From Gemmatimonadetes bacterium SCN 70-22 (GTDB lineage Bacteria > Gemmatimonadota > Gemmatimonadetes > Gemmatimonadales > Gemmatimonadaceae): a stretch of DNA of 33,581 nt. Shown here in pieces: positions 8,047 to 33,581 of this stretch (positions within the stretch are counted from its first letter, which is position 1; each line of letters opens with the position of its first letter). The translations under genes and the position numbers were made by a program. The stretch is from positions 1 through 33,581 of the forward strand of contig MEDZ01000038.1 of the NCBI GenBank assembly GCA_001724275.1. Direction: 5' to 3'. The notes under the pieces were generated by a model, which was not told the origin of the DNA, made no database searches, and worked only from the letters and a program-made list of their open reading frames with translations.

Positions 8047-8783
8047 CAGAAGCGCCCCAGCTTGCTGCCCACGGGGAGGGCGGTCCCCAGGCGGCGCAGC
8101 GTCTGCTCGCGGGCGCTGAGCGTCGCGAGGTAGTACTGGTTGATGTACGGATCGGACGGCGCATCGCGCATGGCCTGCTGCATCGTCTCGGCGGTGCGGT
8201 CGAGCGCCGCGAGGCGCGTCCGGTACTGCTCGGGCGCCATGGCCCCGGAACTGGTGTCGTTGGAGGCGAGCCAGTTGGCGGCCAGCGCATACTGCCGCTG
8301 GGCTTCCTCGATGGCGGCGAGCGCGTCCTGCGTCGAGGCAAAGCCCGCCCCGTTGTTGGCGGCCAATACCCCACCTGCCGGCGCCTCGAAGCCGGCGCCC
8401 GGCGCCGCCGAGGGCGCCCGGAAGGCGACCGCGTCGGCCACCGTCATCCCGGCGCTCATGCGTCCCAGCACTGCTCCCCCGCCCACGAAGACCGCCACCG
8501 CCGCCGCGCGACGCAGGAAGTCCACGGCCAGGTGGTGCGGGGCGCGGCGGCGCCTGGCCACCGGGGCCATGAGCCCCTCGGCGCGCAGGCGGTCACCTAA
8601 CGATTCCCAGCTGGTGAGCGGCGGGGCGATGCGCCGGCGCTCGTCGGCGGCCAGGGCCGCCAGCCGGCGGCAGGCCTCCAACTCTCGCGTGCAGGCCGCG
8701 CACCCCGACAGGTGCTCGCGCTCGGCGGAGGTGGCGCCACCCTCCACCAGCTCGGCCAGGCGTTCAATAGGCAGGTGCAGCAT
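8046..8783 (-). CDS. Zinc-finger anti-sigma factor, membrane-spanning
   Basis: 245 residues. The cytoplasmic N-terminal domain has the ZAS-type motif His-x3-Cys-x2-Cys (EHLSGCAACTRE, residues about 23-34). One transmembrane helix lies near residues 88-110 (AAAVAVFVGGGAVLG), followed by an extracytoplasmic region with a helical C-terminal part (about 150-245). Family members hold their cognate ECF sigma factor at the membrane and release it on a signal. The start overlaps the end of the sigma gene by 20 bases, and the stop overlaps the PDZ gene start, so the three genes form one translationally linked unit. The sensed signal is unknown. Confidence 0.9.
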   Translation of the reverse strand: MLHLPIERLAELVEGGATSAEREHLSGCAACTRELEACRRLAALAADERRRIAPPLTSWESLGDRLRAEGLMAPVARRRRAPHHLAVDFLRRAAAVAVFVGGGAVLGRMSAGMTVADAVAFRAPSAAPGAGFEAPAGGVLAANNGAGFASTQDALAAIEEAQRQYALAANWLASNDTSSGAMAPEQYRTRLAALDRTAETMQQAMRDAPSDPYINQYYLATLSAREQTLRRLGTALPVGSKLGRF

Positions 8784-17252: not shown

Positions 17253-17759
17253 ATGCGTTTCACCGTGAATGAGCAGGTGCGTGACGTGGCCCCCGAGCCG
17301 CACGAGTCGCTGCTGACCACGCTGCGCGACCGCCTCTTCCTCACCGGGGCCAAGCCCGGGTGCGAACGCGGAGAGTGCGGGGCTTGCACGGTGCTCGTGA
17401 ACGGAGAGCCGGTGCTGTCGTGCCTCACGCTCACGCAGGGGTGCGAGGGGGATGCGATCACGACCATCGAGGGGGTGGCCCGGGGCGACGCGTTGCACCC
17501 GTTGCAGGAGGCGTTCATCGCCCACGACGCGGTGCAGTGCGGCTTCTGCACCCCGGGGCAGGTCCTCGCGGCCTTCGCCCTCCTGGCGCGCGACCCGTCG
17601 CCCAGCGATGCGGCGATCGCCCGCGCGATGAGCGCCAACCTCTGCCGGTGCGGGACGTATCCCAAGATCGTGCGGGCGATCCATGCCGCCGCGGCAGCGA
17701 TGGCCGATGCGACGATGGCCGATGCGGCGCGAGTGACCGGCGCGGACGGCCGGCCGTGA
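17253..17759 (+). CDS. 2Fe-2S subunit of a PaoABC-type molybdenum hydroxylase
   Basis: 168 residues. N-terminal plant-ferredoxin-like cluster: Cys37, Cys42, Cys45 (GCERGECGACTV) and Cys57. C-terminal helical domain with the second cluster: Cys96, Cys99 (QCGFCTPGQ) and Cys131, Cys133 (LCRCGTY). This is the standard small subunit of the xanthine dehydrogenase/aldehyde oxidoreductase family, passing electrons from the Mo centre toward FAD. There is no Tat signal, unlike E. coli PaoA, so it appears cytoplasmic. ATG 17253 gives the normal family N-terminus. A tandem 15-bp duplication near the end encodes a repeated MADA motif. It overlaps the large-subunit gene by four bases (GTGA). Confidence 0.95.
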   Translation: MRFTVNEQVRDVAPEPHESLLTTLRDRLFLTGAKPGCERGECGACTVLVNGEPVLSCLTLTQGCEGDAITTIEGVARGDALHPLQEAFIAHDAVQCGFCTPGQVLAAFALLARDPSPSDAAIARAMSANLCRCGTYPKIVRAIHAAAAAMADATMADAARVTGADGRP

Positions 17760-20224
17760 GCGTGCCTAACGATTCGCCGCGCAAGCGGTTCGTCACCACC
17801 ACCGTCGAGGTCGAGGGGCGGACGGAGGCGAAGGTGCTGGAGGTGCCGGCCACCGAGCCGGCCCCCTGGGGAGCGGACGCCGAGCTGTCCATCGTCGGGG
17901 CGCGCATTCCGCGCGTCGACGCCCGCGACAAGGTGACGGGGCGGGCCCGGTACACCGCCGACCTCCAGCGTCCGGGGATGCTGCATGCGGCGTTCGTCCG
18001 CGCCGAGGTGGCGCGCGGGACGGTGACCGCCATCGACGCGGCGGCCGCCTTGCAGCTGCCGGGGGTCGTCGGCGTCCTCACCGCCGCCGACCTCCCCCGC
18101 CCCATGAAGGCCGGCGGAATCCCCCTGTTCGGGGCGGCGGTGCTGTATCCGTTCCAGCCCGTGGCCGCGGTCTGCGCCGAGTCGCGCGAGGCGGCGCTGG
18201 CCGCGGCGGCGGCGGTGCGGGTGACGGTCGACGCGGCGCCGTTCGCCATCACCTTCGAGGACGCCACTGCCCCCGGCGCCCCCCTGGTGCGCGGGAGCTC
18301 CAACCTCCTGCGCGGTTCGCCGCAGGTGACCGAGCGCGGCGACGTGGCGCGCGCCCTGGCCGGGGCGGAGGTGACGGTGACGCGCGAGTACCGGACGCCG
18401 TCGGCGCTGCACACCCCGCTCGAGCCGCACGCCGCGGTGGCGGAGTGGGACGGCGACCGGGTGACCATCTGGGAGTCGACGCAGGGGGTGTACCGGGTGC
18501 GCGACGAGGTGGCCACGGCGCTGGGGCTCCCCCGGTCGCACGTGCGGGTCATCAAGGAACACATGGGAGGGGGCTTCGGGGCCAAGAACAACGCCGGGGC
18601 CCATACCCTGGTGGCGGCGCTCCTGGCGCGGCGCACGGGGCGGGCGGTCCGGTGCGTCCCCACGCGTCACGAGGAGCAGGGCGACGGCGGGCACCGCCCC
18701 CCTTCGCGCCAGGTGGTGACGCTGGGGGCGCGGCGCGACGGGACGCTGGTGGCGATCGATGTGACGTGCGAGGTCCCGTTGGGCGCGGCGGGGTGGGAGG
18801 GGAGTCCGGCGGCGATCTACCGCGAGCTGTACCACTGCCCCAACGTGCGGACGCACGAGACGTTCGCCTGGGTCAACACGCAGCCGATGATGGCCTTCCG
18901 CGCGCCGGGGCACGTGGAGGGGGCGTTCGCCCTGGAGCGGACGATGGACGTGCTGGCGCGCGCGCTGGGGATGGACCCGCTGGCGTTGCGGCTGCGGAAC
19001 TTCGCCGAGCGCGACGAGGCCAGGGACCGGGCGTACTCGTCGAACCGGCTGCGGGAGTGCTACGAGGCGGGGGCGAGGCGTTTCGGGTGGAAGGGGTGGG
19101 GGGAGGATGCGAGGGGGAAGGAAGTGGTACGGGGGGAGGGCGGGAGCGGGGATACGTTGTTGTCGGGGGGGGGCCCCGTCGCGCGCGCCGACGCCCGGGC
19201 CGCCGACGCCCCAGCCGCCGACGCCCCGCCCGCCGACGCCGGGGCCGCCGACGATCGATCCCGGCCCTCCTCCGCCAGCCGCAACCTCCGTCGCGGCACC
19301 GGCATGGCCGCCTGCGTCTGGGGAGCCGGTGGCGGTCCCCCCGCCTACGCCACCGTCCGCCTCAACTCCGACGCCACCGTCGACGTCCTCACCGGCACGC
19401 AGGACCTCGGCACCGGCGCCCGCACCATCCTGGCCCAGCTGGCCGCCGAATCGTTAGGCGCGCGCTTCGCCGACGTGCGCGTCATCCTCGGCGACACCGA
19501 GCGCACCCCCTACGCCGGCAACTCGTGGGGGTCGATGACCACCGCCTCGGTCGGCCCCGCCGTCCGCGCCGCCGCCGACGAGGCGCGCCACACCCTCCTC
19601 GACGCGGCCAGCGAGCTCCTCGAGTGCCACCCCGACGACCTCGTCGCCCGCGACTCGATCGTCGCCACCCGCGACGGCGCGCGCCGCCTGGCCTTCGGCG
19701 AGATCACCCGCAAGCTCGGCAACGTCATGATCATGGGGCACGGGAGCCGCGGCCCCAATCCCGACAACGTGGGGCTCATGTCGTTCGGCGCCCAGTTCGC
19801 CGAGGTGGAAGTCGACGCCGACACCGGCGTCGTCCGCGTGCTGCGCATCGTGGCCGCCCACGACGCGGGGCGCATCATCAACCCGCTCCTCGCCGAGAGC
19901 CAGCTGGAAGGGGGGATCCTCCAGGGGCTCGGCTTCGCCCTGTTCGAGGAGCGACGCCTGGACCCGGCCACCGGCCGCCCGCTCAACGCCTCGATGCACG
20001 AGTACCGGATCCCGACCCTGGCCGACGTCCCGGTCATCGACGCCGTCTGCGTGGCGGGGAGCGACACCGTGGCCAACCACGTGGGGGCGCGGGGGCTCGC
20101 CGAGCCTCCCATCATCCCCACCGCCCCGGCCATCGCCAACGCCGTGGCCGACGCGTTAGGCGTCGAGCCCGCCGAGCTCCCGCTCACCCCGTGGCGCGTG
20201 CTGGAGGCGCTGCGTCGCGCGTGA
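17756..20224 (+). CDS. Molybdopterin-binding catalytic subunit of a PaoABC-type aldehyde/xanthine oxidoreductase
   Basis: 822 residues from GTG 17756. Landmarks: IPRVDARDKVTGRARYTAD (51-69), cofactor-contacting GGGFGAKNN (271-279), PMMAFRAPGHVEGAFALE (the conserved Arg loop), and the catalytic Glu in GARGLAEPP (Glu783) near the C-terminus. Relatives oxidise aldehydes or N-heterocycles with water as oxygen donor. Residues about 445-502 are an insert of Gly, Ala, Asp and Pro containing five 15-bp repeats, placed between the two halves of the Mo domain. Upstream of it codons end mostly in G (GGG, GTG, ACG, GCG); downstream they end mostly in C. The reading frame is continuous and both halves keep conserved residues, so the enzyme may be functional, but the composition break suggests a recombinant gene. 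The FAD partner is probably encoded at 24054. Confidence 0.93.
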   Translation: MSVPNDSPRKRFVTTTVEVEGRTEAKVLEVPATEPAPWGADAELSIVGARIPRVDARDKVTGRARYTADLQRPGMLHAAFVRAEVARGTVTAIDAAAALQLPGVVGVLTAADLPRPMKAGGIPLFGAAVLYPFQPVAAVCAESREAALAAAAAVRVTVDAAPFAITFEDATAPGAPLVRGSSNLLRGSPQVTERGDVARALAGAEVTVTREYRTPSALHTPLEPHAAVAEWDGDRVTIWESTQGVYRVRDEVATALGLPRSHVRVIKEHMGGGFGAKNNAGAHTLVAALLARRTGRAVRCVPTRHEEQGDGGHRPPSRQVVTLGARRDGTLVAIDVTCEVPLGAAGWEGSPAAIYRELYHCPNVRTHETFAWVNTQPMMAFRAPGHVEGAFALERTMDVLARALGMDPLALRLRNFAERDEARDRAYSSNRLRECYEAGARRFGWKGWGEDARGKEVVRGEGGSGDTLLSGGGPVARADARAADAPAADAPPADAGAADDRSRPSSASRNLRRGTGMAACVWGAGGGPPAYATVRLNSDATVDVLTGTQDLGTGARTILAQLAAESLGARFADVRVILGDTERTPYAGNSWGSMTTASVGPAVRAAADEARHTLLDAASELLECHPDDLVARDSIVATRDGARRLAFGEITRKLGNVMIMGHGSRGPNPDNVGLMSFGAQFAEVEVDADTGVVRVLRIVAAHDAGRIINPLLAESQLEGGILQGLGFALFEERRLDPATGRPLNASMHEYRIPTLADVPVIDAVCVAGSDTVANHVGARGLAEPPIIPTAPAIANAVADALGVEPAELPLTPWRVLEALRRA
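19185..19259 (+). repeat. 15-bp tandem repeat inside the molybdopterin subunit, five units
   Basis: Five consecutive units of the form CCGCCGACGCCCCNG, the first and last diverged. They encode Ala-Asp-Ala-X-Ala repeats. The array is in frame and coincides with the point at which strand composition of the gene changes. Confidence 0.9.
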
Positions 20225-24053: not shown

Positions 24054-25034
24054 ATGTCGCCGTTCCAGTATCGCCGCCCCGGCTCCCTCGCAGAAGCGAC
24101 CTCGCTCCTCCGCCTCCCCGGGGCGTACCCGCTCGGCGGGGGGACCGACCTCCTCCCGCTGCAACGGGATGCGCTCGCATCGCCGGCGCTCGTCGTCGAC
24201 GTGCGGCGGCTCCCCGGGGCCGCGCAGGTGCAATGGCTCGCCGACGGGGGAGTGCGGATCGGTGCGGCGGCGCGCCTGGCGCACCTGTCCCGCAACGCGG
24301 CGTTGCGCAGTGCCGTTCCGCTCCTGGCCGAGAGCTGCGCCGCCGTGGGCGGGGAGGCGCTGCGCCACATGGGGACGCTGGGCGGGAACCTGTGCCAGCG
24401 AGTGCGCTGCTGGTACTTCCGCAGCGGGCTCTCGTGCCACAAGAACGGGGGCGACCGCTGCCGGGCGGCGGTGGGGGAGAACCAGTACCACGCCATCTTC
24501 GGGAGCGGCCCCTGCGTGGCGGTACACCCATCGGACCCGGCGGTGGCGCTCACCGCCCTGGAGGCGGTCGTGCACGTGGCGGGAGGCGAGGGAGAGCGCG
24601 AGGTCGCCATCGCGGACTTCTACGCCCGGGCCCACCTCCCCGGGGACCGCGAGACGGTACTTGCACCTGGCGAGATGGTCACCGCAGTGACCATCCCGGC
24701 GGCCTCCTGCGGCGGGGTGCAGCACTTCGAGAAGGTGACGCAGCGCGCGGCCTTCGACTTCGCCCTGGTGTCGGTGGCGGCCCTCCGGCGCACCGACGGC
24801 GAGGTGCGCCTGGTGCTGGGAGGGGTGGCGTCGCACCCGTGGCGGGTGACCGACTCCATCGAGGAGGACGTCGGCTCCGGGGGGTTGAGCGACGACGACG
24901 TCGAGACGCTGGCGCAGCGGGCGTTGTACGATGCGGCGCCGCTGGCGCACAACGGATACAAGGTGGACATCGCGGCGGCGGTGCTGCAACGGGCGATGCG
25001 GGTCCTTTTGCAGGGAGACGGCGCGCCCGCTTAG
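24054..25034 (+). CDS. FAD/4Fe-4S subunit of a PaoABC-type molybdenum hydroxylase
   Basis: 326 residues. FAD-binding signatures of the CO-dehydrogenase flavoprotein family: LGGGTDLLP (27-35) and MGTLGGNL (106-113). Between them and the rest is a loop with four cysteines, Cys114-x4-Cys119-x8-Cys128-x7-Cys136, in the sequence RCWYFRSG/CHKNGGDRC, followed by GENQYHAIFG. This Cys loop is characteristic of PaoB/YagS-type and 4-hydroxybenzoyl-CoA-reductase-like subunits that carry an extra [4Fe-4S] cluster. It fits the 2Fe-2S and Mo subunits at 17253-20224, but is 3.8 kb away with five genes between, on its own transcript. No ribosome-binding site is evident before ATG 24054. Confidence 0.93.
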   Translation: MSPFQYRRPGSLAEATSLLRLPGAYPLGGGTDLLPLQRDALASPALVVDVRRLPGAAQVQWLADGGVRIGAAARLAHLSRNAALRSAVPLLAESCAAVGGEALRHMGTLGGNLCQRVRCWYFRSGLSCHKNGGDRCRAAVGENQYHAIFGSGPCVAVHPSDPAVALTALEAVVHVAGGEGEREVAIADFYARAHLPGDRETVLAPGEMVTAVTIPAASCGGVQHFEKVTQRAAFDFALVSVAALRRTDGEVRLVLGGVASHPWRVTDSIEEDVGSGGLSDDDVETLAQRALYDAAPLAHNGYKVDIAAAVLQRAMRVLLQGDGAPA

Positions 25035-26391: not shown

Positions 26392-27432
26392 TTGAGCGTT
26401 CAACCGACGTCGAGAGCACCTGACACATCGATCAGGCTCCCACTGGCGATTCTCGTGGCGGCGCTCGCGGTGCTCTATGTCCATTTTGTGGCCAGCCGCC
26501 AACCCCACTTCCAGTCCGATTTCGACCAAATCTGGTATGGGGCACGAGCCCTTCGACTCGGCCAAGACCCATACTCCGTCATCGGGCCGGGGCGCGAGTG
26601 GGGCGACTGGCCATGGCCGCTGTACTATCCCCTCCCCGCCCTCCTCCCGGCGCTGCCCCTCTCGTACCTCGACGTCATCACGGCGCGCGCGATATTCGCC
26701 TCGGTGTCGGCCGGCTGCTTCACGTTTCTCGTATCGCGAAACGGCTACTCGCACCTGGCGGCGCTGCTGAGCGCCTCGCTACTCTTCGCGGTTTCGTTCG
26801 TCCAATTCGCTCCACTGCTCGCGTGTGCCGCAATGTCACCGGCGTTCGGTTGGGTGGTCAGTTGCAAGCCCAATATGGGACTAGCAGTGCTGTCGACGGC
26901 GCGCTCGAACAAGTGGCTGGCGGTTTCGGTTGCTCTCTCCGTCGCACTGGTATTGGGATCCTTCGCGCTCCAGCCGACGTGGCCCATGCGATGGTTGGAG
27001 GCAATCCGAGGGGGCGAACACTTCACGCCGTACGCGTTGCGACCCGGCGGCGCGCTCCTCCTCCTCGCCCTCATGCGCTGGCGTCGCCCCGAGGCCCGCT
27101 GGCTGGCAGCGCTATCGGTCATGCCAGGAACACCGGGCGTCCAGGAGGCGCTGATCCTCTTCACGGTGCCACAGTCACTTAGGAGCATTCTCCTGCTGGC
27201 GATCGGCACACACTTCGCCAACTTCTGGGTGCGTCCCCTCGATCAATTCTCGACCTGGATGGACTACGTGAACACCGGCGCGATGGCACTCCTGGCATTC
27301 GTCTATCTTCCGTCGTTGATCGCGATCCTGCGGAGACCGAACGAGGGAGAGGCGCCCGAATGGCTTGAGGTAGCCATGCTGCGCATCGGCGCGGGCCTGG
27401 CGCGCGCGCGCTCGAGGCTGGCGAGCAGCTGA
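26392..27432 (+). CDS. Short GT-C-like (GT87-type) polytopic membrane protein, paralogue B
   Basis: 346 residues, starting at TTG 26392 with GAGGA upstream; no other start precedes the first helix. After the first hydrophobic segment comes the family signature SDFDQIWYGARALRLGQDPY (42-61), then WPWPLYYPLPALL, CKPNMGLAV, PTWPMRWLEAIRGG, ALMRWRRPEARW and a C-terminal LRRPNEGE. Acidic residues in the first loop suggest a GT-C active site using a polyprenyl-phosphate sugar. It looks less GC-biased than its neighbours, with AT-rich codons throughout, a sign of separate origin. It converges on the UbiA gene with a 31-base gap without a recognisable terminator. Specificity unknown. Confidence 0.78.
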   Translation: MSVQPTSRAPDTSIRLPLAILVAALAVLYVHFVASRQPHFQSDFDQIWYGARALRLGQDPYSVIGPGREWGDWPWPLYYPLPALLPALPLSYLDVITARAIFASVSAGCFTFLVSRNGYSHLAALLSASLLFAVSFVQFAPLLACAAMSPAFGWVVSCKPNMGLAVLSTARSNKWLAVSVALSVALVLGSFALQPTWPMRWLEAIRGGEHFTPYALRPGGALLLLALMRWRRPEARWLAALSVMPGTPGVQEALILFTVPQSLRSILLLAIGTHFANFWVRPLDQFSTWMDYVNTGAMALLAFVYLPSLIAILRRPNEGEAPEWLEVAMLRIGAGLARARSRLASS

Positions 27433-27463
27433 CACGCTCATTGCCTGCATCTCGGGCTTCTGA

Positions 27464-28441
27464 CTAGGGGCGGCCTTCGAGCTGCGTCGGCGCCGTCGGC
27501 ATGAAGAATCGATGCATGGCCGGGAGGTCGACGTACAGCAGCGCGGCCATCAGCACCGTCGTCCCCACCACGGCCGCCATCAGCCCGCGCTCGCGATACA
27601 GGCGCTCCGGCTGCTGGGCGGCGCTGTGCGGGCGGAGCGCCACGCGCAGGTACATCGCCATGACCAGCGCCACCATGGGGAAGGCGAGGATCAACTCCAT
27701 CCGGTAGCGCATGCAGAAGGCCCCGAAGAAGAGCATCGACGCCGCCGCGTAGAACATCACGGAGACGATGAGCCGGTCGGCAGTGTACCAGGCGAACGAC
27801 TTCCGATAGGCGGCCGCGCGCGCCGGGTCGTCGATGTTGCGGAACTCGGCGAAGCGCTTGAGCGCCATGAAGTAGCACCCGATCATCCAGTAGCTCAGGA
27901 GGAGCGAGACCGGAGGGAGCGTCTCGCTGGTGACGATGAACCATCCCGCCATCATCCGCAGCGGGTTGTTCACCGCCTCCGAGACCACGTCGAGGACCGG
28001 CTTGTCCTTGGTACGGATGGGCGGAATGTTGTACAGGCAGGCCATCACCCAGAGCATGCCTAACGTCGCCATGAAGAAGGGCGACACCGTCCACGCGATC
28101 GCCATCCCCGCGAGGAACAGGACGAGCCACTGCGCGTAGCCGATGGCGACGTTCACCTCCCCCGCGGGCACCGGGCGGGTGTGCTTGGTGGGGTGGAGGC
28201 GGTCGTACGGGGCGTCGAGCAGCTCGTTGAGCGTGTAGTAGCTGGAGGCGATGGTACAAATGGCGAGTGCGCCCACCAGGGTGCGGATGACGAGGGCGCG
28301 CCCGTCGACGACGGGGATCGTTCCGATGGCGACGACGATCCCGGGGATGACGAAGACGTTCTTGAACCAGTGGTCGGGGCGCGCGATCTCGAGGTGGGCG
28401 CGCAGGCGCGTCCGGAGGAGCGCGCCCTCAGGCGACGACAT
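27464..28441 (-). CDS. UbiA-family prenyltransferase resembling decaprenyl-phosphate phosphoribosyltransferase
   Basis: 325 residues, about eight to nine helices. ATG 28441 lies inside the end of the GT2 gene (14-base overlap). The N-terminus IARPDHWFKNVFVIPG and the motif Asn72-x3-Asp76-x3-Asp80 followed by HPTKHTRPVPAG match the mycobacterial DPPR synthase branch (HPTK-x-x-RP) better than quinone-type UbiA enzymes. A second signature, KDKPVLDVVSEAVNNPLRMMAGW, and KRFAEFRN also agree with that branch. Known members transfer 5-phosphoribose from PRPP to decaprenyl phosphate, the first step toward lipid-linked ribose or arabinose. Coupling to a polyprenyl-phosphate GT2 supports a role in making a lipid-linked sugar. 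The exact substrate is inferred. Confidence 0.88.
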   Translation of the reverse strand: MSSPEGALLRTRLRAHLEIARPDHWFKNVFVIPGIVVAIGTIPVVDGRALVIRTLVGALAICTIASSYYTLNELLDAPYDRLHPTKHTRPVPAGEVNVAIGYAQWLVLFLAGMAIAWTVSPFFMATLGMLWVMACLYNIPPIRTKDKPVLDVVSEAVNNPLRMMAGWFIVTSETLPPVSLLLSYWMIGCYFMALKRFAEFRNIDDPARAAAYRKSFAWYTADRLIVSVMFYAAASMLFFGAFCMRYRMELILAFPMVALVMAMYLRVALRPHSAAQQPERLYRERGLMAAVVGTTVLMAALLYVDLPAMHRFFMPTAPTQLEGRP

Positions 28442-29246
28442 GCTGCCCGTCCGTGCGGGAGATGGCGGCGCCGGACGTTGCTCGGGCGCGGACCTCCTCG
28501 AATTCGCGCTGCCTGATCGCTTCGAGCCGGTCGCTCGCGTACACCCCCCGTAGCTGGTTGGCCTTGATGCGGAATACGTCGACGAAGCCGCGGGCCGCAT
28601 CGCGCCACAGGCGCACCGACGACGTCTCGTTGTTCCGCAGCTGCACCGGAATGCGGTGGACGTCGAGCTTGTGCTTGAGCGCCAGGTAGATCAGTTCGAC
28701 GTCGAAGGCGAACCGGTCCAGGCGCTGCAGCCGGAACAGCTCGTCGGCCACGTCGCCCCGCACCCCCTTGAGCCCACACTGCGTGTCGAAGAAGCCGCCG
28801 GTCACCATGGTCCCCACGAAGGTGGTGAAGATCGCCGACGCCGCCTTTCGGGCGGGAGTGAGCTCGGCGATGTAGCGGGACTCGGGGAGCGAGCGATCGC
28901 CGATGACGACGTGAAAGCCGCGCTCGCGTATGATGGCGGAGATGGTGGGGATGAGGTCGAGGTCGTAGGGGAGGTCGACGTCGGTGAAGATGCGGACATC
29001 TCCGGTGGCGGCGAGCATTCCCGCTCGGACGGCGGCCCCCTTGCCGTGGTTGTGCGGAAGCGTGAGCAGGCGAACGCCCGGCAGGTCGTCGAAGGGAGCA
29101 ACCGGAAAGTCCCCTCCGCCGTCGTCGACCACGATCAGTTCCCAGGAATGTGGAAACTCCGCGAAATACGCCGACAACTGCTCCGCCGACCGACGCGCCA
29201 ACGCCGCCGCACGGAAGCAAGGGAGAATGACTGAGAGTTCGGGCAT
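28428..29246 (-). CDS. GT2 polyprenyl-phosphate glycosyltransferase, DPM1/ALG5-like
   Basis: 272 residues, cytoplasmic, no C-terminal membrane helices. GT-A fold motifs: SVILPCFR (5-12), IVVDDGGGD (38-46), NHGKGAAVRAGMLAATGD (66-83), the metal-binding DVD at 89-91 within FTDVDLPYD, GDRSLPESRY, DTQCGLKG and FAFDVELIYLA. This pattern is typical of dolichyl/undecaprenyl-phosphate mannose or glucose synthases. It would load a sugar onto polyprenyl phosphate at the inner face of the membrane for use by the GT-C enzymes encoded nearby. It overlaps UbiA by 14 bases and is divergent from the GT39-like operon across 169 bases in which no clear promoter is visible. Confidence 0.93.
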   Translation of the reverse strand: MPELSVILPCFRAAALARRSAEQLSAYFAEFPHSWELIVVDDGGGDFPVAPFDDLPGVRLLTLPHNHGKGAAVRAGMLAATGDVRIFTDVDLPYDLDLIPTISAIIRERGFHVVIGDRSLPESRYIAELTPARKAASAIFTTFVGTMVTGGFFDTQCGLKGVRGDVADELFRLQRLDRFAFDVELIYLALKHKLDVHRIPVQLRNNETSSVRLWRDAARGFVDVFRIKANQLRGVYASDRLEAIRQREFEEVRARATSGAAISRTDGQHVVA

Positions 29247-29415
29247 CTCGGGGCTGTTCCTCTCCCCTTTCCAGGACGTGGATCAGCGTGGACGCGCCCC
29301 TCGTCGAGTGCAAGCCGGGTGCCGCTCCGGCCCACTCCCCGCCATGTCGGGACGACAGACAAGCTGGCCCCTCGGCGACTGATTTGTCGATCCCCGGGAT
29401 GGATCACAACCTGCG

Positions 29416-31020
29416 ATGTCCATCGGCAGGAAGCTTGCAGTAACCGCCGCCGTGACGCCCCCCTCTCATACACGCCGCCCCCCCGACCTCCTGCTGGCAG
29501 GAACGGGCCTGCTGGCGATCCAGCTAGCCACGCTCGCCCTGGCGGATGGGTGGGGGCTCTTCACCACACCGGCGTGGCAGGACGAATACGTCTCGCTCCA
29601 CGTGGCGGGGCGAGGCTCGGTCGCAGAGAGCCTGCGCGCCCTCGCGCAGGGGGCCGACACCAACGCACCCCTGCTGTATCTGGCGCAGCGCCTTGTTGGA
29701 TTCATATCCGGGGGGCTCGACCTCACGGGACAGGTGATGCTCCCGTTGCGGCTCCTGAGCTTCGCCTGCGTCTGGGGGACGCTTCTCGGAACCTACGCCC
29801 TGTTGCGGCCGAACTTCCCCCACCTGGTCGCCTTCGCCGCCGCCGCTGCCCTCTGGACGCACCCGCTCATCGTGCAGCACGCGTTCGAGGCGCGCTTCTA
29901 TGGCCCATGGCTGCTCTGCACGGTGCTGTTCGCGCTCGCGGTGTCGCGCGCGGGCGAGTGGCCACCTTCGACTCATCGGCTGGCGATCGCGCTGAGCGCG
30001 GCAGCCCTGTGCCTCGTGCACTACTTCGGCGTGATTACCTGGGGAATCATCGTCGTCGCGCAGGGCGTCAACGATGCGCGGGTGAAACCATTCGCGTGGC
30101 GGGCGACCGCACGGCGGTTCGCACCCGCGACTGCGGGGCCGTTGGCCCTGGCGATGTGCGTCCCCCTCTACCTGGGGCAGCGACTATCGCTGACCGTCTC
30201 CACGTGGATCCAGCCGGCGACCGTGACAAAGGCCGTGCTCTACATGCTCCTCGTGGTGTGGCCGATCGGACTCCTTGGCGGTTCGCTCCGACTCGCCTCG
30301 GTCGGGATGCGACCCACGGACGGATCCACTCCGGTATCGGCTTCGGTGCCCACGCGATCGCGGGGTGCGTGGACGCTGCTCGCGCTGGTGCTGCTCCCGG
30401 TCATGCTGATCGCCTTCTCGCTCCTCTTCCAGCCGGTGCTCATCGATCGCTACGTTACCGTCGGGGTGCTGGGCGGCGCTCCCGTGATTGCGTGGAGCCT
30501 TCGACGGTACCGCACCGGGGGGCATATACTGGCCCTCGCGGTGATGGCCGCCCTCTCGGTGATGGCGATCCGTCATCGCGCATCGCTCAATCGCAAGACG
30601 ACGGAGACGAACGCACGGATCGCCCGGGACATCTCGACCCATGTCGGGCGAGGCGAGCCGGTCGTGTTCACAGCGCGACGTACTATGTATCCCGTCGTCA
30701 GCCTCCTGCCGCACTCCATGGCATCGCAGTTGGCCTTCCCCGACTTCGCGGAATCCATGCGACGGGGCGCGAGCGACTTCGAGATCTTCGAACGCGACGC
30801 GGCGCGCGTGCATGCGCGCCTGTACGGCTTCCCGGCACTCCGTCGCATGGAAGACCTTCGCCGCCTCGAGCAATTCCTGCTGGTCACGCGCGAGGACACC
30901 TTGGCTTTCGCCGAGCGCTGGTTTGCGGGCTACCGCGCCGAGCGCCTCGCCCCCCATCTCTTCCGCCTTCGGATGGCTGCCCCCCCGGCGACCGAGAGCG
31001 GACGCGCCACGACGCCATGA
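29416..31020 (+). CDS. GT-C glycosyltransferase, GT39/ArnT-like membrane protein
   Basis: 534 residues, first gene of a four-gene overlapping operon. About ten hydrophobic segments, then a soluble C-terminal domain (about 400-534). The first extracytoplasmic loop has WQDEYVSLHVAGRGS with Asp56 and Glu57, the acidic pair expected for the catalytic site in GT39/GT83 enzymes, followed by TNAPLLYLAQRLV and later HAFEARFYGPWLL, both matching that family. Such proteins move a sugar from a polyprenyl-phosphate donor to lipid, protein or glycan outside the cytoplasmic membrane. ATG 29416 has no obvious ribosome-binding site; GTG 29452 is an alternative. Its stop overlaps the next start in ATGA. Confidence 0.85.
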   Translation: MSIGRKLAVTAAVTPPSHTRRPPDLLLAGTGLLAIQLATLALADGWGLFTTPAWQDEYVSLHVAGRGSVAESLRALAQGADTNAPLLYLAQRLVGFISGGLDLTGQVMLPLRLLSFACVWGTLLGTYALLRPNFPHLVAFAAAAALWTHPLIVQHAFEARFYGPWLLCTVLFALAVSRAGEWPPSTHRLAIALSAAALCLVHYFGVITWGIIVVAQGVNDARVKPFAWRATARRFAPATAGPLALAMCVPLYLGQRLSLTVSTWIQPATVTKAVLYMLLVVWPIGLLGGSLRLASVGMRPTDGSTPVSASVPTRSRGAWTLLALVLLPVMLIAFSLLFQPVLIDRYVTVGVLGGAPVIAWSLRRYRTGGHILALAVMAALSVMAIRHRASLNRKTTETNARIARDISTHVGRGEPVVFTARRTMYPVVSLLPHSMASQLAFPDFAESMRRGASDFEIFERDAARVHARLYGFPALRRMEDLRRLEQFLLVTREDTLAFAERWFAGYRAERLAPHLFRLRMAAPPATESGRATTP

Positions 31021-32027
31021 ACGGTCGGGCGTCCGCATCCTCGCTGCGCGATCGTCTCGTCCCCGCGCTGCTCATCGGGATCCTCGCCGCCGTCTGGTCG
31101 CGACAGCACGCCATCGCGAACCCGGCGTTCACGAGCGACTTCGACCAGGTCTGGGCGGCCGCTGGTGCGTTGTTGCGCGGCGACAATCCGTACGCCGAAG
31201 TGGGGCCGCACGCGCCGTTCACCTGGCGCTGGCCGTTGTACTATCCGATGCCGGCGCTCCTCATCGCCGCGCCGCTCGGAGCGCTCCCGGTTGTCGCGGC
31301 TCGAGCGATCTTCGCCGGCGTCGGCGCCGCGCTTTTCACGTTCGCGATCTCGCGCGACGGGTGGGGGCGGTGGCCCATCCTGCTGAGCGTCACCTTCTTC
31401 GTCAGCATCGACCTGGTGCAATGGTCGCCGTACCTGGCGGCCGCGTTCTACCTGCCCGCGGCCGCACTTCTCGTCCCCGGCAAGCCAAACTTCGCCCTCC
31501 CGGTGGTCGGCGGCGCGCGCGATCCCCGCACGTGGCACTTCCTGATACTCGGGGCTGTCCTTCTGGGCGTCGCGTCGTTCGCCGTCCGTCCGACGTGGCT
31601 TGCCGAGTGGATGGCGAACGTGCGCGAGGCGCCTCACTTCGTTCCTCCCGTCATGCGACGCGGTGGGGTGTTGCTGCTGCTGGCAGCGCTCCGCTGGCGA
31701 AGGGCGGAGGCGCGCTGGTTCCTCGCGCTCTCCGTCATGCCGATGGCGCCGTCGTTCTACGACCAGCTCCTCCTGGTCGCGGTGTGCACCACCTGGTGGG
31801 AATCGGCGATCCTGGCGGCGTCGACCTATGTGCTCTACTTCTACGTCGGCGCCAACCTGCCGCAGCCAGACTACGCGGCGTGGGGAGAGCTGGTGGGCGA
31901 CGCTACCGTCTGGTTCTGCTACCTGCCGATGCTGGCGATCCTGCTGCGAAGACCTAACGAGGGAGGCATCCCGCATCCGCGCGCACTCCTCGTCTCTTGG
32001 CGTTCCCCCCGGAAACCCGGCCCGTGA
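31017..32027 (+). CDS. Short GT-C-like (GT87-type) polytopic membrane protein, paralogue C
   Basis: 336 residues from ATG 31017, in an ATGA overlap with the upstream gene. Family signature: TSDFDQVWAAAGALLRGDNPY (about 39-59), WRWPLYYPMPALL, GKPNFALP, RPTWLAEWMANVREAPH, LAALRWRRAEARW and LRRPNEGG near the C-terminus. About eight hydrophobic segments. It is most similar by eye to paralogue B, with which it shares the RRPNEG end motif. Coupled translation with a GT39-like enzyme and paralogue D supports a joint role in one glycan pathway. Its frame is open far upstream, but that region is the out-of-frame GT39 gene. Confidence 0.8.
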   Translation: MNGRASASSLRDRLVPALLIGILAAVWSRQHAIANPAFTSDFDQVWAAAGALLRGDNPYAEVGPHAPFTWRWPLYYPMPALLIAAPLGALPVVAARAIFAGVGAALFTFAISRDGWGRWPILLSVTFFVSIDLVQWSPYLAAAFYLPAAALLVPGKPNFALPVVGGARDPRTWHFLILGAVLLGVASFAVRPTWLAEWMANVREAPHFVPPVMRRGGVLLLLAALRWRRAEARWFLALSVMPMAPSFYDQLLLVAVCTTWWESAILAASTYVLYFYVGANLPQPDYAAWGELVGDATVWFCYLPMLAILLRRPNEGGIPHPRALLVSWRSPRKPGP

Positions 32028-33097
32028 GCGCGCAGCTGGTACCCCGTCGTGACCGCGCCGTCGCGATGCTGGTCGTGGCGCTGTTCACCATGACGTACGC
32101 GGCCGCCCGTGCCATCCACGAGCCGGCGTGGTCCACCGACTTCGACCAGCTCTGGCACGCCGCGCGCGCGCTCGTGGCCGGCGGGAACCCCTACGACGTC
32201 GTCGGGCCGGGTAAGGCGTTCCAGTGGGATTGGCCGCTCTACTACCCTCTCCCCGCAGTCGTCCTCGCCGCGCCCTTCGCGTGGATGCCGGTGGCGCTGG
32301 CACGCGTCGCGTTCAGCACCATCTCGGGCGCCGTCCTGGGATACGCCCTGGGGCCGCGCCTGCGCACCCACTGGCCGCTCCTCCTCAGCGCCGCGTACCT
32401 GATCGCCACCTCGCGCACGCAATGGGCCCCACTCGTCCTCGCGACGTTGTGGCTCCCATGGGCGGGGGTGGCGATCGCCGCCAAGCCCAACGTCGGACTC
32501 GCCGTCCTGACGGCGCTCCGCGGTCGTCACCTCGTGAACGCCATCGCGGCGGCGGCGGCGATCACGCTTCTCGCGACGGGAATCCACCCGCAGTGGATAT
32601 CCGAATGGCGCGCCTCGATCGCCGACGCCCCACACATCGTGGCACCGCTGTTCATGCCGTGGGGCTTCCTCCTGGCGCTCGCGGCGCTACGATGGCGTCG
32701 CGCCGACGCCCGGCTCCTGCTGGGGCTCGCGCTCCTCCCTCACACGCCCTCCCTCTACGACCTGGTCCCCCTGTTCTTCCTCGCCCGCACGCTGCGCGAG
32801 TCGCTCGTACTCGCGGTGCTCACCCACGTCCTGTTCTTCGGCTTCATCGCGTTCAGCGGAGGGCCGACGTTCGATACGTATGCGGCGGCGCTGGGGCGCG
32901 CCTCGGTGCTCGTCGTCTACCTCCCCGCACTGGCTGCCGTTCTGTCGCGCCCGAACGTCGAAGTAGAATCACCTGCCGACGAGAACGTCAGCTGGCGCCA
33001 AGCGCTTCCCACGACACCTGTCTGCGCCTTGCTCAGTATCGCCCTGCTCATGGGCGCGACGTTTCTCATCTGGCTGCCGCTGGTCACCAGGCGATGA
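32024..33097 (+). CDS. Short GT-C-like (GT87-type) polytopic membrane protein, paralogue D
   Basis: 357 residues from GTG 32024, in a GTGA overlap with paralogue C; an earlier in-frame TTG at 31997 is less likely. Signature: STDFDQLWHAARALVAGGNPY (about 37-57), WDWPLYYPLPAVV, AKPNVGLAV, HPQWISEWRASIADAPH, LAALRWRRADARL and LSRPN. It carries one more hydrophobic segment at the C-terminus (about 335-354) than its paralogues. Its stop overlaps the start of the next, interrupted gene in ATGA. Predicted membrane glycosyltransferase or lipid-linked-sugar-binding protein; the family has no function that I know of. Confidence 0.8.
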   Translation: MSAQLVPRRDRAVAMLVVALFTMTYAAARAIHEPAWSTDFDQLWHAARALVAGGNPYDVVGPGKAFQWDWPLYYPLPAVVLAAPFAWMPVALARVAFSTISGAVLGYALGPRLRTHWPLLLSAAYLIATSRTQWAPLVLATLWLPWAGVAIAAKPNVGLAVLTALRGRHLVNAIAAAAAITLLATGIHPQWISEWRASIADAPHIVAPLFMPWGFLLALAALRWRRADARLLLGLALLPHTPSLYDLVPLFFLARTLRESLVLAVLTHVLFFGFIAFSGGPTFDTYAAALGRASVLVVYLPALAAVLSRPNVEVESPADENVSWRQALPTTPVCALLSIALLMGATFLIWLPLVTRR

Positions 33098-33492
33098 GAT
33101 CTGGCGGCGCGTCGGCGCGAATGGGCCAGTACGCAGGGGTCGCCTGCTTCGCCGCAATCTGGTTGCTCCTGGCGGTGTTCCTCTTCGCCCCATCGCTGGA
33201 TCGCCCCATCGACTTGATTGACTTTCACGACATCACCCCGCTCATTCGTGCCAGCGACAGTGCGTGGGACGCTCTCGTTTCTGTCAGTGCGTTGTACCAA
33301 AGACATGGACGGCTCAGCGTCGTGAGCTATGCGTACTTCGTCGCCAAGTGGTACGCATTCGGCGATTGGGGCCTCGGATGGCAAATCGTTCGCCTCGTCG
33401 AAGTTGCCGTGACAGCGGCGCTCTTCTACCTGCTTCTGCGGCGCCTTGGCGCGGGGCGCACCGGCGCCGCCCTCGCACAATTCTGGACCTGA
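33094..33492 (+). pseudogene. 5' part of a further polytopic membrane protein, cut off by an insertion sequence
   Basis: ATG 33094 overlaps the preceding stop by four bases. 132 codons are readable: one hydrophobic helix (about residues 12-32, ACFAAIWLLLAVFLFAP), a loop with DRPIDLIDFHDITPLI, and a second hydrophobic stretch (VEVAVTAALFYLLLRRLGAG). The layout resembles the start of a large GT39-type or similar polytopic membrane protein. The stop TGA at 33490-33492 seems to be the first three bases of the adjoining mobile element, so the protein ends abruptly after FWT. If the remainder exists, it should resume beyond the element, outside the window. Confidence 0.7.
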
Positions 33493-33581
33493 CCCGGTTT
33501 GATGGACACCTCACCAGCCCCAAATTGAGGGCGGAGGTGTTCAATGGCAGCACGACGGAAGCAGACCGCAGGGGACCAGCG
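33490..33581 (+). mobile_element. Left end of an insertion sequence, possibly IS3-like (continues beyond the window)
   Basis: Composition and style change at about 33490: TGACCCGGTTTGATGGACAC reads like an IS terminus beginning TGA, and is followed by an inverted pair ACACCTC (33506-33512) and GAGGTGT (33534-33540), then a good ribosome-binding site and a start codon. The boundary coincides with premature termination of the preceding gene. Family assignment is a guess from the TGA start and the layout; the other end and the target duplication are not visible. Confidence 0.55.
33544..33581 (+). CDS. Start of a probable transposase gene (partial)
   Basis: ATG 33544 is preceded by GCGGAGGTG at ideal ribosome-binding distance. 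The visible residues are MAARRKQTAGDQ, a basic start compatible with the first frame of an IS3-type transposase, but too short to identify. Confidence 0.5.
   Translation, partial: MAARRKQTAGDQ

Follow-up and report, generated by a model that had tools for sequence, protein, structure and literature searches.

The pathway class that yields lipid-linked pentose donors has already been described in mycobacteria, in Citrobacter [PMC11127046] and, for the arabinosylation of pilin, in Pseudomonas (cited in PMC11127046). The three-component pentofuranose systems, described for Citrobacter youngae ORF12-15, combine PPPRS, PRP HAD, a MATE flippase and GT136, and the 5-phosphoribosyl lipid derived from phosphoribosyl pyrophosphate (PRPP) requires a phosphatase partner [PMC11127046]. 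The locus described here is located at 26392-33492 of contig C38 [GenBank accession number MEDZ01000038.1] of Gemmatimonadetes bacterium SCN 70-22, and the entire contig of 33,581 nucleotides is referred to as the window. It includes genes for a UbiA-superfamily protein, a family 2 glycosyltransferase (GT2) and several membrane glycosyltransferases of the GT-C type, among them members of a compact multi-copy family designated S. The UbiA protein belongs to the phosphoribosyl branch, where it is a member of a distinct subfamily, sister to the DPPR/PPPR synthases, and the S family shows a conserved linkage to genes for the Tad (Flp) pilus.

The genome (4.70 Mb, 84 contigs, 99.98% complete) is from a member of the Gemmatimonadota with its closest relatives in Gemmatimonadaceae. 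Each gene type named in a sequence-only reading of this stretch (UbiA, GT2, GT39-like, short GT-C) was found, and two further S genes were added, S0 in the window and S4, the fifth paralogue of the genome, on contig C83. Features of the window are as follows.

26392-27432, plus strand: S1, predicted compact GT87/PimE-like GT-C; alternative start at 26455 possible
27464-28441, minus strand: predicted UbiA-superfamily membrane phosphoribosyltransferase, 325 amino acids (aa), new sister subfamily of DPPR/PPPR synthases (PF01040, ligands, tree, fold)
28428-29246, minus strand: GT2 of the polyprenyl-phosphate sugar synthase type, 272 aa (PF00535; PDB relatives ArnC and DPM synthase)
29416-31020, plus strand: GT39/PMT_2-like GT-C, 534 aa (PMT_2 E 0.0007, below cut-off)
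31017-32027, plus strand: S2, predicted compact GT87/PimE-like GT-C (AlphaFold model, fold match to PimE 9dm5)
31997-33097, plus strand: S3, predicted compact GT87/PimE-like GT-C; alternative start at 32066 possible
33094-33492, plus strand: X, N-terminal part of a GT-C-like membrane protein of about 505 aa, broken by an insertion sequence (alignment to the intact homologue in genome G139)
33490-33581, no strand: left end of the insertion sequence, terminal repeat TGACCCGGTTTGATGGACACC; further copies end contigs C6 and C32
20253-21227, plus strand: S0, fourth window member of the predicted compact GT87-like family, outside the cluster (S-family comparison)

The UbiA and GT2 genes overlap and are transcribed in the same direction, and the start of S2 overlaps the stop codon of the PMT_2-like gene (ATGA).

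The UbiA protein and its subfamily

The UbiA protein matches Pfam PF01040. The DPPR-type models of NCBIfam score it at 77-97 bits, compared with 28 for CyoE and 27 for MenA, and it is below every DPPR-type cut-off (85.5 bits with the DPPR equivalog, which needs 207). Its best PDB match by sequence is the DPPR synthase Rv3806c. Donor-bound Rv3806c [PDB 8j8j] is likewise the best fold match (Z 27.2, root-mean-square deviation 2.7, 284 residues) of its AlphaFold model (predicted local distance difference test score, pLDDT, 94.5), and the next UbiA structure has a Z of 23.6.

For comparison of ligand positions, the window protein and 84 close relatives of it were aligned with a further 20, more distant relatives from Gemmatimonadota, with Rv3806c and with both remaining UbiA proteins of this genome. 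Ten of the 13 ligand residues listed for Rv3806c [PMC10994848], namely R22, K28, Y70, N73, D77, K87, R90, Y138, K143 and K191, are retained in all 85 clade members that cover each position, six incomplete rows being gapped at R22 and K28. In the window protein these are R21, K27, Y69, N72, D76, K86, R89, Y137, K145 and K195. They comprise PRPP, Mg and polyprenyl-phosphate ligands, the last including K28 and K191. The HPTK..RP and KPVLD motifs on which the sequence-only reading drew are present, and because their key residues are conserved across the 85-member subfamily they are not a chance occurrence.

In the tree, a branch supported at 99/96 sets the clade apart, with the DPPR-like group as its sister. 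The two remaining UbiA proteins of the genome, one CyoE-like and one MqnP-like and encoded beside UbiD/UbiX-like genes, both lack most of the K/R cluster. An identity as a quinone or heme UbiA was rejected on this comparison, the NCBIfam scores and the tree. Clustering with quinone or heme O prenyltransferases, which would have spoken against the original assignment, was not seen; tree, HMM (hidden Markov model) scores and fold all favour Rv3806c. The DPPR-synthase-like assignment therefore stands, with PRPP and polyprenyl-phosphate ligands kept, and these two compounds are quite probably the substrates.

The clade also carries its own changes relative to Rv3806c. NE replaces ND (D74 to E) and Y157 is N in all members, a 3-residue PPxR insertion follows Y138, and Q135 is A or G, though this position varies in the DPPR-like group too. 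The shared changes at donor-site positions, together with the failure to reach the NCBIfam equivalog cut-off, would fit a subfamily that takes another donor or acceptor, such as a different sugar pyrophosphate or a non-polyprenyl lipid phosphate. This is considered improbable, as the remaining ligands tested are kept except for the variable Q135 and K208, the role of Y157 is only moderate and Phe occurs there in some mycobacteria [PMC10994848], and a dedicated HAD phosphatase (see below) suits a phosphorylated sugar product.

Members of the clade were found in about nine phyla: Gemmatimonadota, Acidobacteriota, Myxococcota, Actinomycetota, Planctomycetota, Armatimonadota, Thermodesulfobacteriota, Pseudomonadota and Melainabacteria. 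Distribution within Gemmatimonadota is patchy (10 of 395 genomes, at ~56% identity or more), and the proteins of this genome, G139 and G358 form one subclade (support 96/95). Two records titled Bifidobacterium breve and Euryarchaeota archaeon (L075, L115) contain UbiA genes that group with Acidimicrobiia and Gammaproteobacteria, and are probably mislabelled or misbinned contigs.

The putative phosphatase partner and the likely sugar product

In other genomes, the dominant classes of same-strand immediate neighbour of clade UbiA genes are PMT_2 GT-C genes (25/96) and HAD hydrolases (up to ~15/96). The run GT-C, HAD, UbiA occurs in G393 and G012, with equal gene order in G010. A search of the 395 genomes at E 1e-20 detected a relative of the HAD protein in six, all of which are among the 10 that carry the UbiA clade (p 4e-11). 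The HAD protein is a specific partner of this UbiA in Gemmatimonadota, and would act as a phosphatase. In the present genome it is encoded on contig C19, unlinked to UbiA, and has 42% identity. Two types of HAD protein, PF12710 and HAD_2, lie beside clade UbiA genes depending on the phylum (L088, L099, L100, L106 and L114 versus L170, L172, L173 and L041), which suggests that the phosphatase was recruited independently. In many Granulicella-type genomes (Acidobacteriota; L058, L060, L065, L070, L079, L094), a gene for an FAD amine-oxidase-like protein of ~580 aa is divergently oriented near UbiA, and may be an extra pathway step or a chance neighbour.

The sequence-only reading had proposed a pentose pathway like that of mycobacteria, in which the UbiA product is epimerised (DprE1/DprE2) to polyprenyl-phosphate-arabinofuranose and consumed by GT-C enzymes. 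The position of UbiA in the DPPR branch and the arabinosylated pilin of Pseudomonas, made with a related UbiA (cited in PMC11127046), are compatible with this. However, no PF04030 (DprE1-type oxidase) match was obtained in this 99.98% complete genome by a search that was positive in a Corynebacterium control, and the predicted fold of S2 is far nearer PimE than AftA, EmbA or EmbC (values below). The arabinose pathway was rejected on the absence of PF04030 and is regarded as very improbable; FAD_binding_4 (PF01565) proteins do occur in the genome, their individual types not being assigned. As the HAD partner is present and PF04030 is absent, the likeliest product is polyprenyl-phosphate-ribofuranose, in line with the published three-component systems, and ribose is favoured over arabinose with fair confidence.

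The compact GT-C family and its linkage to Tad loci

The S proteins are about 340 aa in length, and S0, S1, S3, S4 and the other aligned members share 28-43% identity with S2. D41 is almost invariant. The window members have no Pfam match, and so do not reach the gathering score of PF09594 (GT87), which is nonetheless the main recurring Pfam match across the family (11 of 65 members, weak, best E 0.0022). A search of PDB sequences with the S profile returned nothing relevant. The AlphaFold model of S2 (pLDDT 94.3) gave nothing significant in plain Foldseek, and PimE [PDB 9dm5] emerged only on structural re-alignment, where it ranked above other GT-C enzymes (Z 18.0 over 297 residues). Corresponding Z values for arabinosyl-type enzymes were 6.1 for AftA, 5.5 for EmbA and 4.7 for EmbC. 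The S proteins are very probably GT-C transferases and, on the strength of the model, are predicted to be remote GT87/PimE-like enzymes. PimE uses polyprenyl-phosphate-mannose made by a GT2. The GT2 of the window matches PF00535 and has ArnC and DPM synthase as its closest solved relatives, and its counterpart in G139 is 53% identical. The assignment of the partner genes to the polyprenyl-phosphate-sugar GT2 type and the GT-C type is upheld, the latter by similarity to PMT_2 and PimE.

At least 26 of the 395 genomes carry S genes, a lower bound as the top five candidates were scored per genome. The Tad-specific CpaB/RcpC was found in 23 of these 26 and in 54 of the 369 others (p 4e-15). Eighteen of the 23 have an S gene and CpaB on one contig no more than 20 kb apart, with distances starting at 1.8 kb, and this linkage extends over at least 12 genera in three families with the side and orientation varying. 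A matched control comprised 20 regions from the same phylum that surround DPPR-like UbiA genes, and none of them was near Tad or S genes.

Dependence of the S paralogues on UbiA was examined and rejected, as the UbiA clade is missing from 22 of the 26 S genomes, although there is a mild co-occurrence at genome level (p 0.002). In several loci that lack a UbiA gene, S genes accompany a GT2 (G158, G169 and contig C244 of G393). The compact GT-Cs, at first taken for part of the UbiA pathway, follow Tad pili instead. The neighbourhood is conserved only in part: the full set is retained in G139 alone, where the order is UbiA, S, GT2, X, S, S, S, Tad, whereas UbiA, accompanied by HAD and GT-C genes, is conserved in many more genomes. 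The Tad operon of G358 has the UbiA gene beside it.

In the present genome the connection to Tad crosses a contig break. X ends at 33492 owing to the insertion sequence that begins at 33490, and C83 opens with the other end of an element of this kind, its terminal repeat differing at two positions, and then continues with the remainder of X. Relative to the intact 505-aa homologue in G139, the window part covers residues 20-114 and the C83 part residues 121-353. No clear or exact target-site duplication was seen at the element in X. The element, which has the terminal repeat TGACCCGGTTTGATGGACACC and also lies at 1-93 of L005/L168, terminates contigs C6 and C32 as well, and this accounts for the contig break. 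The order on C83 is X, S4, other genes, then TadC, TadB, TadA, CpaE, CpaC, CpaB, TadE and CpaA, and this CpaB/RcpC gene is the only one detected in the genome.

Two Flp pilin genes lie next to CpaA on C83 (L206, C83:5001-13553, around 8118-8553) and predict the Thr-rich C-termini TGTITTV and TGQITTV. Pilins of this genome and G139 were found by a looser pattern scan, the stricter pattern having missed them. The tails are TNSITSV in G139 and TGQITTV in G358; in what is a small sample, similar tails were seen only in these three genomes with UbiA and S at the Tad locus and not in the other Flp pilins read. A role for RcpC in the glycosylation of Flp pilins has been mentioned [PMC12307814]. The S family is judged somewhat likely to act on the Tad pilus or in its vicinity.

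Alternatively, the cluster could make or modify a surface polysaccharide of the O-antigen or capsule type, as the Citrobacter systems do, the proximity to Tad being inherited and without function. Clade UbiA genes in other phyla neighbour PMT_2-type GT-C and HAD genes, and the polyprenyl-phosphate-pentose systems in PMC11127046 decorate polysaccharides, pilin arabinosylation excepted. Nevertheless, the breadth and varying arrangement of the S-Tad linkage and the matched control argue against this explanation, as does the window, in which no obvious polymerase or export genes were seen by inspection, and it is considered unlikely.

S0 is set apart from the cluster. By inspection, subunits of a xanthine/aldehyde-oxidase-type enzyme (2Fe-2S, molybdenum and FAD) are encoded at 17253-20224 and 24054-25034, and S0 with other genes sits between the oxidase large subunit and the FAD subunit.

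Proposed route and comparison with known systems

The cluster may represent the left part of a glycosylation locus associated with the Tad pilus, combining a polyprenyl-phosphate-hexose route (GT2 and GT87-like) with a polyprenyl-phosphate-ribose route (UbiA and HAD), a reading for and against which the evidence is about evenly balanced. The computed results are protein families and folds, conserved ligands, genomic linkage and the co-occurrences with HAD and Tad. Substrates, direction, flipping and acceptor are inferred, as follows. UbiA would move 5-phosphoribose from PRPP onto polyprenyl (undecaprenyl) phosphate, and the unlinked HAD phosphatase would strip the 5'-phosphate to leave polyprenyl-phosphate-ribofuranose. 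GT2 would produce a second polyprenyl-phosphate-sugar, probably a hexose. A flippase would carry the lipid-linked sugars across the membrane, where GT-C enzymes that face the periplasm (the PMT_2-like protein, X and the PimE-like S proteins) would put them on a Tad-linked acceptor, most likely the Flp pilins with their Thr/Ser-rich C-terminal tails. The Tad genes behind the insertion sequence on C83 would form the right part of the locus. That the UbiA sugar reaches the same target as the S family in this genome is given slightly less than an even chance.

Several points weigh against this route. The window proteins resemble PMT_2 and GT87 only at scores under the Pfam cut-offs, and the acceptor is deduced from linkage alone, for which shared ancestry may be part of the explanation. 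No CpaB was found in three genomes that carry S genes. The UbiA clade overall is not linked to Tad (3 of 10 genomes, p 0.31), and it may have come to lie in this Tad locus by local chance. The 395-genome search found no HAD relative in G139 or G358, the closest relatives of the locus. The clade changes (Y157 to N, ND to NE, the 3-residue insertion) touch the donor site, where another donor is possible. A flippase was not identified, no search having been aimed at a flippase or GT136. For Gemmatimonadota as a whole, we tentatively propose a dedicated Tad/Flp glycosylation machinery with a Tad-tied, amplified, compact PimE-like GT-C family fed by GT2, to which one lineage adds polyprenyl-phosphate-ribose from a PRPP-dependent UbiA subfamily that has its own HAD and occurs in many phyla.

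Little has been described of how the Tad pilus, a widespread attachment machine, is glycosylated, and the arrangement suggests a previously undescribed route for decoration of the pilus or the nearby cell surface. It also connects compact PimE-like GT-C enzymes genetically with Tad pili in a way that can be tested, and adds a sister UbiA subfamily, left unnamed by NCBIfam at its own cut-offs, to those associated with lipid-linked pentose donors. The sequence-only reading had considered a pentose-lipid pathway with compact GT-C paralogues to be new; a pentofuranose-lipid pathway outside mycobacteria was already known [PMC11127046]. No description of the UbiA subfamily, the compact GT87-like family or its Tad link was found in a literature search that covered papers outside subscription, and all three appear to be new.

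The closest described systems each share part of this arrangement. Rv3806c has the same UbiA fold, Mg ligands, PRPP K/R cluster and the K28 and K191 residues, whereas the present protein is in a separate clade with NE rather than ND, N rather than Y157 and an extra PPxR loop, and in place of the mycobacterial Rv3807c phosphatase there is a HAD protein, with no DprE1-type protein. The Citrobacter systems likewise combine a PRPP-type UbiA, a HAD phosphatase and a GT-C, but here the HAD gene is separate and unlinked, the GT-Cs are PMT_2-like and PimE-like, and the locus is Tad-linked. In PA7-type pilin arabinosylation of Pseudomonas (TfpW, PPPRS), a related UbiA is present and a GT-C glycosylates a member of the type IV pilin family; that pilin is type IVa and receives arabinose with the help of epimerases, while the present locus is associated with Tad/Flp. 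PimE (GT87, PF09594) resembles the predicted fold of S2 and also has a donor made by a GT2, but the S sequences are below the Pfam cut-off, are ~340 aa long, occur in multiple copies and have a different genomic setting.

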